The translations under genes were made by a program, and so were the position numbers. Of a DNA stretch of 64,000 nucleotides, positions 6,935 to 44,865 are shown piece after piece (the stretch's first letter is position 1; the number at the start of each line of letters is the position of its first letter). The DNA is from Sipunculus nudus. Its lineage: Eukaryota; Annelida; Sipuncula; Golfingiida; Sipunculidae. The notes under the pieces are model-generated. The model did not search any database and was not told where the DNA came from. It was given only the letters and a program-made list of their open reading frames with translations. The DNA is taken from contig CM049314.1 in NCBI GenBank assembly GCA_026874595.1, positions 62,475,300 to 62,539,299 of the forward strand. The letters run 5' to 3'.

Positions 6935-7675
6935 CCATGAAACCGGCATCGCGCGATTTAATCCTTTCCTTATGGTGTCAAATTTATCAATCAGTTTTAT
7001 ATAATTTTAGTTCCCATATCTGTCGTTGTCGTGTGTCGGTAAGGTGGCCCTTTAGAACGCAAATCTGCATGCATTCTGGCGAGTGTTCCTGTTGAGAAAA
7101 ATGTTCTCCGACCGGTAAGTTAGTGTCTAGCGCTTTAATGGACTGTCTGTGGCCATTTATTCTGAGACTAAGCATTAGGCTGGTTTCGCCTATATAAATA
7201 ACTCCTGGACATATTTTACATAGGATGGCATAGACTACACCTTTACTGGTGCAGTCAAAGTGTCCCTGAATAGTGTGTTTGGCACCATGGATAATTAGGG
7301 TTTCCTTGCGGACTATGAGTGGGCATGTGCGACAGCGCGGTCTTTTACATGGGAATGTAGCGTTAGTGTTATCATATCTGAAGCTTTGATTTTGTACTAA
7401 TTTTTCTATGTATATTTTGGGGTTGTTTAAAAGAGAGGAGTGGTGTGTCAGGAAAGAGGGGTTTTAATGTAGGGTCCGATTCTATTAAAGGTTGTAGATC
7501 GTGAATAATTCTTTTTAAAGGTTTTAGTATGCGGGGATGAAATGTTGCAACTCACGGTGTGCGAAGTTTTCTATTTTGATTTTTGGAGCGAGTAGAGAGC
7601 TGCGTGAAATTGTAGTGGCTTTTCCTATTTGTTTTTCTACTGTTTTCTGTTTGTACCCCAACTGAGCTAAATCTA
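6935..7675 (-). pseudogene. Penelope-like element fragment: RT end plus GIY-YIG endonuclease
   Basis: Read on the minus strand, a frame from about 7675 gives the RT tail (LAQLGYKQKTVEKQIGKA, SRSSLLAPK). After a frameshift near 7418 comes a Cys cluster (CKRPRCRTC, about 7325-7352), then GVVYAILCKICPGVIYIGET (about 7170-7230) and the Arg/His motif LRINGHRQSI. The end reads KFDTIRKGLNR near 6950-7000 after another frameshift. This is the linker and GIY-YIG nuclease of the PLE lineage that includes Penelope and Poseidon. GIY-YIG cuts the target for retrotransposition. Only the C-terminal third remains, and two frameshifts make it inactive. It meets the plus-strand PLE fragment at about 7676. Confidence 0.82.
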
Positions 7676-8636
7676 AAATAGACTTTTTGGACGTAACTTT
7701 GGACCTGAACAAAGCAGAATATAAACCTTTCATGAAACCCAACAATACCCCAATATACATCCACAAAGACAGTAACCATCCCCCAAGCATAATAAGAAAT
7801 ATACCTGAAAGCATAAACAGAAGGTTGTCCAACATCTCCTCAAATGAAGATGTATTCAACCATACTGCCCCTCCATATCAGGAGGCATTACTCAACAGTG
7901 GATACAGTTTTAAACTCAAGTACATCCGCTCGCAACAACCCAACACCGACGGAAAGAAGAGAAACAGAAGGAGGAACATAACGTGGTTCAATCCCTCATA
8001 CAGCGCCAACGTGAAAACGAACGTAGGAAAAAGGTTCTTACAGCTTCTTGACAAATGTTTCCCTCCTGGCCACAGTTTACACAAAATCCTGAACCGTAAC
8101 ACCGTAAAAATCAGCTATAGCTGCATGCCTAACATGAAGCAGGTCATTTCAGCACACAACAAAGGACGACTTAACAATGAGAGAATTAATGAAAAGAAAA
8201 CAGAGAGCATAAGCAAAAACTGCAACTGTAGAAACCTAAAAGAATGCCCAATCAAAGAAGGATGCCTTACTCAAAGCATAATTTACCAGGCCAAAGTTAC
8301 CAGAAAAGATAACAAACAAGTGGAAACATATATCGGACTGACAGAAAACGCATTTAAAACGAGATACTATGGACACATCAGTGGTTTCAGGAATGAAAAA
8401 TACAGAAATAGCACAACACTAAGCCAGTACGTCTGGACTCTGAAAGAAAAAAACATACCCTATTCGGTCAAATGGAAAATCATGGCTAAATGCAGACCTT
8501 ATTCCAACACGTCCAAAAATGTAATTTATGCACCACCGAGAAATACTATATAATTTGCTGACCTGATCTGAGTTCACTAAACAATAGGAACGAGCTCACA
8601 ACGTAATGCAAACATAGAACTAAATACCTCCTTTGA
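7676..8636 (+). pseudogene. Penelope-like element fragment: RT thumb plus GIY-YIG endonuclease (Neptune-like)
   Basis: The frame opens with LDVTLDLN and SNHPPSIIRNIPESINRRLS, typical of the PLE RT palm/thumb. It continues with a basic linker, a Cys motif (NCNCRNLKECPIKEGC, about 8218-8265) and the GIY-YIG segment TYIGLTENAFKTRYYGH near 8325-8375, then STTLSQYVWTLKEKN. The open frame ends at 8553, but a one-base slip in an A run near 8515 restores the expected terminal CNLCTTEK zinc motif in another frame. A TAA and then a TGA near 8636 close it. The N-terminal RT fingers and palm are missing, so it is 5'-truncated, as PLE copies often are. Its motifs differ clearly from the minus-strand fragment, so they are different PLE lineages. 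Confidence 0.88.
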
Positions 8637-8956
8637 CACCTTAAATAATTTTAAGCCGATAATAAAGTTAAATATGCAGTCTCAAGATCCCAGCCAAGTA
8701 TGCAGGAACAACCAACTGGACTACTTATCCACTGATCCCCTGACCGAACCAACACCTGGGGTCTTGATCAACTTTAAGCAATCCAACAAATCCTCGAGCG
8801 CTTCATAATAGCCCTAATACAGTACAATAAGCCAGGCACCCAGTAACCCTTAATGACCAACAAAACAAAAACTTTAAATACATGCCTCACCGAACCGAGT
8901 AACCCCAGATAAATCCTACCTATTACGACAAACTTCACCCAAATATCTGATCACTC

Positions 8957-9024
8957 CAGTTTGTACCTGAAGAGTGAGCCGGCTTGAATGCTGCTCTCAC
9001 GAAACAGATCTGTAGCACAAACTG
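8957..9024 (+). ncRNA. hammerhead ribozyme (type I layout), PLE-associated
   Basis: All hammerhead core positions can be placed. Core C3-A9 is CTGAAGA at 8967-8973 (position 7 is free to vary). Stem II is 8974-8978 with 8996-9000 (5 bp, starting with the required G-C). GAA plus A15.1 is 9001-9004. Stem III is 9004-9006 with 9011-9013 around a GATC loop, giving the A15.1-U16.1 pair. H17 is A at 9014. Stem I pairs 8957-8966 with 9015-9024, with one mismatch in ten. PLE terminal repeats are known to carry hammerheads, and this lies 320 bases after the plus-strand PLE frame. Activity is not shown; loop contacts between stems I and II cannot be judged, and H17=A is not the most common base. Confidence 0.72.
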
Positions 9025-9048
9025 ATGAAGTCAAACTAACCGTACTTT

Positions 9049-9064
9049 ATATATATATATATAT
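9049..9064. repeat. (AT)n tract just after the hammerhead
   Basis: Short TA run 25 bases past the ribozyme, possibly marking the PLE end. Confidence 0.8.
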
Positions 9065-13034: not shown

Positions 13035-13900
13035 GGTACCCACTATCACCAGTTATCAGGACGTTAAAAAATATGTAACCACGTCATGAATTTATCATAA
13101 AGTTATGATATGTCCGTTCACGTATTTTTATGTGTGGGCTGTATAATGTATTTTTGCCTCCCTTGCTGTATCAATTGTCAGGTAAATTGTCATAACAACA
13201 TTTTCACATCCTTCTGTATCGTTACTAAAAAGATCTGTCCTGATTTATTGAACATTTTAATTGTAATATGATGTTTACAAAACAGTTGACGAAAATATAA
13301 TTACTGGACATAAATGAGTTTTTTTACTGGGTGCGTTTGAAAGGTGCCACTTGGCCACCAACAGGTGACGACGAAAAGGCGAATTTCAAGGGCCAAGAAA
13401 AAACAGCGTACTCCAAGAGACTTATATCTCAGGCTTGGCAAAGTCGGGTTTTGGGCCCATCTCCCGTAGGGGAATGGGGGTTTGGGGGGCTTAAGTCATT
13501 TACTTTTTTAATACAACAGGGCCCAGGACTATAAAAACAACGAACAACAATCGTGGCCCCCATGCTGTACGTTGATTTACTGAACTCTTTCACGGAACTC
13601 ACAATTTACTGAACTCTATTACTTTGTTAAGTGTATAAGCAAAGCAAAACCACACTCCACGACTAACAAATCCTGTAATCTCTGCCTGGAAGAGAAATTC
13701 TTTATAATTTACAGACCCCTATTGTGAACACTTTAAAAGAAACGAACTTGCGAGCACATACAGACACAGGGCGAAACACCTCCTGGCTATCACGCATGCG
13801 CCAGACCAAACATTCAAAAATCTTAATACCTGGCCCACTTCATTATGGTTTCCGAAGAGTGAGGACCTACGGTAAAACCCATGTAGGTTAAAGTCTTGAA

Positions 13901-13901
<1 letters not shown>
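13035..13901. other. no gene recognised
   Basis: A frame at 13331-13534 has no recognised motif. Confidence 0.5.

Positions 13902-13939
<38 letters not shown>
13902..13939. repeat. (AC)n microsatellite
   Basis: Pure dinucleotide run. Confidence 0.97.
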
Positions 13940-44517: not shown

Positions 44518-44550
44518 TGTGTAAGGAATCAAACGATTGTAAGCATCGTG

Positions 44551-44865
44551 TACCCGAACTCCTTCAAAACAAGATATAACAACCATAAAACATCGTTTAG
44601 ACACCCGGAAAAAAGGAATAGTACGGAACTCAGCAAATACATTTTGGAACTAAAATAGAACAACGTCAAATTTGAAATACAGTGGAAAATACTCAGAAAA
44701 GCCAAAGCACATTCTCCAGAAACTAACAGATGCAACCTATGCCTGTTGGAGAAATATTTCATTTTATGTAAACAAAACATGGCCACGCTTAATCAAGAGA
44801 TTAATCTCGCTCTGGCGAGAATGCATTCCAAGAGATCTTCTAATTTTTTTCTCTTAATTTTTTAA
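44551..44865 (+). pseudogene. Penelope-like element fragment: GIY-YIG C-terminus (Neptune-like)
   Basis: One frame from 44551 to the TAA at 44863-44865 reads SFKTRYNNHKTSF, RNSTELSKYILELK, an in-frame TAG at 44656-44658, then QWKILRKAK and the terminal zinc motif CNLCLLEKYFIL. The order and spacing match the end of the PLE at 7676-8636. Everything upstream of the nuclease's Arg/His motif is gone, and the fragment starts 35 bases after the (TA)n tract. Confidence 0.8.

Follow-up and report, generated by a model that had tools for sequence, protein, structure and literature searches.

A probable type I hammerhead ribozyme in the pseudo-LTR of a Penelope-like element of Sipunculus nudus, at whose 5' edge many genomic copies end

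Introduction

Hammerhead ribozymes are already known from Penelope-like elements (PLEs), and the copy described here adds one of the known type. Lunse, Weinberg and Breaker reportedly described, in 2017, small variants of the PLE hammerhead whose cleavage occurs in dimers. Tandem and inverted pseudo-LTRs (pLTRs) and an optional tail have been described for PLEs (PMC11167929; excerpt of PMC3846280). A review, in the excerpt available of it, holds that PLE hammerheads may cleave as dimers and calls their role in living cells a mystery (PMC7761336). In PAc, the Poseidon element of Anolis carolinensis, the hammerhead cut only in the presence of the element's own protein, and cutting was not needed for insertion in vitro (PMC11167929).

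The DNA analysed here, referred to below as the window, is a stretch of 64,000 nucleotides from Sipunculus nudus (G000:C9:62475300-62539299 in the searched genome of 1.43 Gb and 153 contigs). A sequence-only reading had proposed a nearly canonical hammerhead ribozyme in this window, downstream of a PLE. Here the ribozyme, the element that carries it, its relatives in the genome and the places where the genomic copies end are described.

Results

We read the window against the hammerhead core definition and numbering, which we take to be CUGANGA, GAA, an A15.1-U16.1 pair and H17, with the predicted cut falling at 9014/9015. On this reading, positions 8957-9024 are very probably a type I hammerhead ribozyme lying in the pLTR of a PLE, with the following parts:

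8957-9024, forward strand: probable type I hammerhead ribozyme (direct reading, shuffles, covariation, held-out covariance model)
8957-8966, forward strand: stem I, 5' strand (direct reading, fold)
8967-8973, forward strand: core C3 to A9, CUGAAGA (direct reading; kept across copies)
8974-9000, forward strand: stem II, with 5 bp, an internal loop, 4 bp and a hexaloop at 8984-8989 (fold)
9001-9003, forward strand: core G12 A13 A14 (direct reading)
9004-9013, forward strand: stem III, the perfect palindrome ACAGATCTGT, with 3 bp and a tetraloop in the monomer and 10 bp between two copies
9014-9015, forward strand: predicted cleavage, between A17 (9014) and 9015 (hammerhead numbering)
9015-9024, forward strand: stem I, 3' strand (direct reading, fold)

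Direct reading agreed with the earlier claim that every core position is present: the CUGANGA core, the GAA, A15.1 (9004) opposite U16.1 (9013), and H17 (A9014), which gives the predicted triplet GUA, legal for cleavage. The stems that had been drawn were also recovered, with 9/10 pairs in stem I (8957-8966 with 9015-9024; mismatch A8965/C9016), 5 pairs in stem II (8974-8978 with 8996-9000) and 3 pairs in stem III (9004-9006 with 9011-9013), a combination that none of 200 dinucleotide shuffles reached. A descriptor scan of both strands of the window returned this single site, in two H17 registers; looser descriptors were matched 0.5 times per shuffle. The points that had been flagged as unusual from the sequence proved to be mild oddities. 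The supposedly bulky 17-base loop of stem II is not really bulky, because the 17 bases between the two strands (8979-8995) contain four further pairs (8980-8983 with 8990-8993) and a 6-nt loop. Neither A7 nor the A at the cleavage position is odd, because both positions vary between sister families, where each is A, C or U. Cleavage may be slowed by the A8965/C9016 mismatch next to the core and by A17.

The element copy to which the ribozyme belongs and its reading frame are as follows:

7675-9064, forward strand: 5'-truncated copy of a Penelope-like element, running from inside the RT/nuclease frame to the 3' end in (TA)n (alignment of about 1.39 kb, 95-96% to other copies)
7666-8553, forward strand: open frame that covers the last part of the RT region, a cluster of cysteines and a GIY-YIG-like motif (TYIGLTENAFKTRYYGH) (sister-frame alignment; motifs by eye)

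The true frame continues, frameshifted, past 8553 to about 8633 (tblastn 8517-8633). The earlier figure of 320 bases between the nuclease frame and the ribozyme holds when it is counted from this frameshifted end, but from the stop at 8553 the distance is 404 nt. The window frame aligns with frames of 705 and 710 aa at sister loci, and the RT motifs, the cysteine cluster and the GIY-YIG-like motif can be recognised by eye. Searches of Pfam and of PDB sequences gave no usable match to the RT or the nuclease of the element, and structure prediction of the window frame alone was of low confidence (mean pLDDT 36.7). Since none of these confirms the RT or the nuclease, the Penelope-like assignment leans on anatomy. 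The setting claimed by the sequence-only reading is therefore supported by the pLTR organisation and by motifs read by eye, but not by profile searches of the frame.

This organisation comprises tandem copies, an inverted copy on the 5' side and an optional tail, as expected of pLTRs. The direct repeat of the pLTR measures 360 nt in L021, long frames stand in tandem arrays at a fixed period, and inverted end pieces abut direct copies; the optional tail is found at 6 of 7 inverted and 12 of 30 direct ends. Tandem units of 2667 nt (L056), 2427 nt (L057) and 3324 nt (L021) each carry a hammerhead. The order in L056 is hammerhead (129-193), frame (349-2466), hammerhead (2796-2860), so that cutting of a tandem transcript would give units of 2667 nt. 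In a tandem element the ribozyme occupies the interval between successive ORFs.

Other frames and fragments were seen in the window. A second GIY-YIG-like frame lies head to head with the element on the reverse strand at 6987-7463 (Pfam GIY-YIG E 0.0035, below the curated cut-off), and a fragment at 44527-44856 on the forward strand matches the L057 frame at its nuclease end, with 77% protein identity. Upstream of the element, at 214-2983 on the forward strand, are frames resembling the integrase and RT of an LTR retrotransposon (by eye, from the ORF list).

The Penelope-like element of the window is present in hundreds of copies in this genome. A 521-base query had at least 47 matches genome-wide (40 of 640 candidates scored), and the 47-base ribozyme core had 230 matches with at most 3 mismatches, those listed (100 of the 230) all being exact; the reversed control had 0. 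The copy alignment was limited to fragments that span the ribozyme (query start at 29 or before, end at 95 or beyond), and in it a by-eye reading found the core intact in 32/37 copies and altered in L007, L011, L023, L027 and L028. Judged by its sequence, the window copy is dead as well as 5'-truncated, and its ribozyme still equals the family majority, none of the 14 sites at which it differs from that majority in 8300-9046 lying within the ribozyme. Variability within the family was 1.3% in the ribozyme and 1.4-2.5% in the flanks. A clearly lower substitution rate in the ribozyme than in the flanks was not seen within the family, and this similar drift is what dead copies should show. All 37 aligned rows, which had been selected as resembling the window, have A at base 17, but the 91 copies taken from the pattern listing comprise 58 with A, 32 with C and one with T. 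At G000:C12:8537527-8557265, four copies of the 3' end of the window family are spaced by about 6420 bases, perhaps as a larger ribozyme-bearing tandem repeat.

Sister elements were sought by protein (133 of 3168 candidates scored; identities from 100% down to 47%), and 18 sister loci at 75% identity or less were examined for a downstream hammerhead. Model R1 found one in 14 of the 18, at the same place as in the window, 10 of the 14 being training rows of R1. The first batch gave 12/13 loci, comprising the 10 training rows and two others equal in score to training rows, and the second gave 2/5, namely L061 (score equal to that of training row L053) and L062 (new). A fifteenth sister hammerhead, at L059 (813-870), is plain by eye and was missed by R1; it has U-U at the base of stem II and U17. 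At L037, L060 and L063 no hammerhead was found in the downstream DNA examined. The sister cores include imperfect ones, with G at position 6 in L041 and C at position 4 in L043, L044 and L046. A17 occurs with a canonical core in L053-L058, while among more diverged copies C17 is found in L035, L040 and L048 and a full stem I pair in L036.

Two of these families deserve a remark of their own. The L059 family is a much-repeated tandem PLE with frames of about 713 aa and a period of about 2924. In the L043/L044/L046 PLE family (ribozyme at 2501-2577), C replaces U at core position 4 in the four rows read, and it does so too in a remnant at 13846 of the window.

Compensatory changes in the stems, which had been named as a check on the ribozyme, proved nearly absent among close copies but plentiful between families. 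Within the family 1/22 pairs had changed on both sides, a value that 98/500 shuffles reached, the divergence being too small to decide. Between families (13 rows) 9/14 pairs had changed on both sides, which 15/500 shuffles reached. Cells with a double change numbered 24 against 10.1 in shuffles, 0/500 being as high and slid partners giving at most 6, and the picture was the same with 16 rows (32 against 13.7). The pair types (13 rows) were not above shuffles, 271/500 of which reached the observed value; of the five covariation measures, two (pair types and pairs changed) do not clearly beat shuffles. The three helices, with stem I open-ended, thus appear to have been maintained by compensatory change between families.

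A covariance search had been proposed as a further check, and its outcome depended on the model. With Rfam 15 there was no hammerhead match in the window at the gathering score, and none up to E 10 on stretches of 1001 and 83 bases, where the hammerhead models were run without a positive control. Rfam was also silent on the hammerheads of nine sister loci (seven, plus L059 and L062), some of which have CUGAUGA, the textbook hammerhead core. Its silence on the window says little because these sister-locus hammerheads were missed too, which suggests that the Rfam search as used here misses the PLE hammerhead class. Model R2, built from nine sister-element hammerheads in four sequence groups with the window's family excluded, did match the window, at 8961-9020 with 40.2 bits and E 1.3e-10, the E-values of these models being rough. 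The sole other R2 match in the window up to E 1 (15.2 bits, 13846-13880) is a sister-element hammerhead remnant with an internal deletion. The forward strand at 13634-13907 is the remnant of a second, sister PLE of the L043 family (about 92% DNA identity), and the middle of its hammerhead is deleted.

Helix III has ten bases in all families read except L059. Its sequence is perfectly palindromic in the window family and L053/L056, and reading shows the same for L043/L044/L046 and L062. For the monomer of the window RNA, another structure was favoured by 3.2 kcal/mol. With two strands, the minimum-energy fold of L056 and of the two window-family sequences tried was the double hammerhead, that of the window having 10 inter-strand pairs and 9/10 core bases unpaired. 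A 10-bp helix III between copies was predicted in 5 of the 8 sequences tried, with 9 or 10 core bases open in 3 of these; the dimer folds of L045, L057 and L059 lack an inter-copy helix III. These models predict that helix III of the window ribozyme can pair between two copies, as in a dimer-acting PLE hammerhead, and the predicted dimer fold fits the published view that dimer cleavage may occur.

The ends of genomic copies were mapped in two overlapping sets. The first comprised 200 exact matches to 9018-9044, 100 of which, at 100 distinct places, were read; a pattern ladder toward the cut had two steps, with 200 and 174 exact matches. The second used an anchor further downstream, at 9027 (75 of 135 matches). 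Only copies with an exact anchor are sampled in this way, alignment ends are uncertain by a few bases, and the arms of stem I, being inverted repeats, may favour the joining of ends. In the first set (100 of 200 matches), 36 copies extend upstream by 92 nt or more, and the other 64 stop short. At the 5' edge, 8949-8967 (19 nt), there are 29 of these 64 ends (1.53 per nt), and at the predicted cut, 9013-9018 (6 nt), there are 9 (1.5 per nt); the remaining 68 positions from 8926 on have 25 (about 0.37 per nt) and 1 lies further up. Four ends, at three loci (both arms of L064, L065 and L084), fall exactly at 9015. The second set (75 of 135 matches) has 46 breaks, of which 22 are at 8949-8967 (1.16 per nt), 4 at 9013-9018 (0.67 per nt), 4 at 9019-9027 (0.44), 11 at 8992-9012 (0.52) and 5 at 8926-8991 outside the peak; one is exactly at 9015.

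The clustering of copy ends at the ribozyme's 5' edge is firm. The bump at the predicted cut is not firm, and it was inconspicuous in the second set (4 ends in 6 nt). That cutting by the ribozyme sets most copy ends was considered and rejected, the main pile-up being at the ribozyme 5' edge. A candidate feature lies at this edge:

8951-8956, forward strand: initiator-like TCACTC, candidate RNA start (copy-end pile-up at 8949-8967; directly before the ribozyme)

An Inr-like TCACT has been reported in the pLTR of a bdelloid PLE (excerpt of PMC3846280).

Discussion

The explanation that we favour starts from the sequence, the structure, the covariation between families, the copy number and the tandem and inverted pLTR anatomy, and would add to these an RNA start, dimer pairing and cutting, and uncut RNA as the main form that is reverse-transcribed. 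The RNA of the element would start a few bases before the ribozyme, so that the ribozyme would form the 5' end of the RNA and recur between units. Two ribozyme copies may then pair through the palindromic helix III to form a double hammerhead, which would cut after base 17 to give unit-length RNA with a 5'-OH. Most of the RNA that is reverse-transcribed into the genome would be uncut at its 5' ribozyme. We read the copy ends at 8949-8967 as marking where the RNA template begins; those at the cut would stem from cut RNA. We offer only tentatively, as something possible and short of probable, that the ribozyme is the 5' end of the element RNA with an initiator directly before it, copies ending at its 5' edge where the RNA was uncut and, more rarely, after the cut site where it was cut. 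The 5'-edge half of this reading draws on a strong pile-up in two overlapping sets, the cut-site half, which is unproven, on few ends. Since the second set showed no conspicuous bump at the cut, the odds of the RNA-end reading are lowered, and slightly also those of the main explanation. It also counts against our explanation that the cut site of the related element PAc coincides with neither the start nor the end of any RNA-seq read (PMC11167929). If the reading is true, old insertions would be a record of how often the ribozyme worked in living cells.

An alternative is that the hammerhead is a relic of an active ancestor in a family that no longer cuts, given the A17 of many copies, the mismatch beside the core and the weak stem III of the monomer, and that it persists solely by virtue of its place in the pLTR. 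The preference of the monomer for another fold agrees with this, as do the more diverged copies with C17 (L035, L040, L048) or a full stem I pair (L036), and the finding that most copy ends retain an uncut ribozyme while those at the cut form no conspicuous group in the second set. However, the core is intact in 32/37 copies, the 47-mers among the matches listed (100 of 230) are all exact, C17 is present in 32 of the 91 copies read, and A17 is also found with the canonical core of L053-L058, so that a relic seems unlikely to us.

We also regard as improbable that the structure is mainly a site for the joining of cDNA ends or for binding of an element protein, with cutting secondary and with the stem I arms, as inverted repeats, promoting head-to-head joining. 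Copy ends do cluster on the 5' arm of stem I, many of them in head-to-head junctions, but six ends at 8955-8958 (L078, L094, L098, L106, L119 and L136; by eye) abut something other than an inverted ribozyme, which for L094 and L106 is an inverted piece from further downstream in the element. Moreover, the catalytic core is conserved across families and would not be needed for joining. Chance, or a mere inverted repeat that resembles a hammerhead, could appeal to the silence of Rfam and to a core-only pattern expected 0.12 times in the window, but it is scarcely credible in view of the held-out model (E 1.3e-10), the compensatory changes between families and the 0/200 shuffles.

The many element copies that end right at the ribozyme edge may be what is new here, and a specialist may find the end mapping new; no report of copy ends at a PLE ribozyme edge was met in the literature searched, where the search aimed at this topic by name was narrow. 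Several PLE families in one genome, each with a diverged hammerhead, provide both covariation and a copy-end record for testing the role of the ribozyme.

As in the dimer variants reportedly described by Lunse, Weinberg and Breaker (2017), helix III of the window ribozyme is suited to pairing between copies, although here the dimer fold is a prediction. The window ribozyme resembles the minimal type I PLE hammerheads (Cervera and de la Pena 2014, as cited in excerpts of PMC7761336 and PMC6155905) in being of type I, in its pLTRs and tandem arrangement, in its short stem III and in the adjoining PLE frame. It differs from them, as far as those excerpts describe them, in that stem III is a 10-nt palindrome and not absent and that stem II is long with an internal loop. 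PAc is likewise a PLE with a pLTR hammerhead and an optional tail, and its uncut RNA is the main insertion substrate; its ORF begins at stem II of the ribozyme, whereas in the sister element L056 about 155 nt separate the end of the ribozyme from the first ATG (PMC11167929 for PAc). Metazoan retrozymes, according to the excerpt of PMC7229834, also have type I hammerheads with a weak helix III, and the axolotl retrozyme HHR_Amex2 has U-U at the base of stem II as L059 does, but they are short non-coding tandem repeats, whereas the element described here has a frame of its own.
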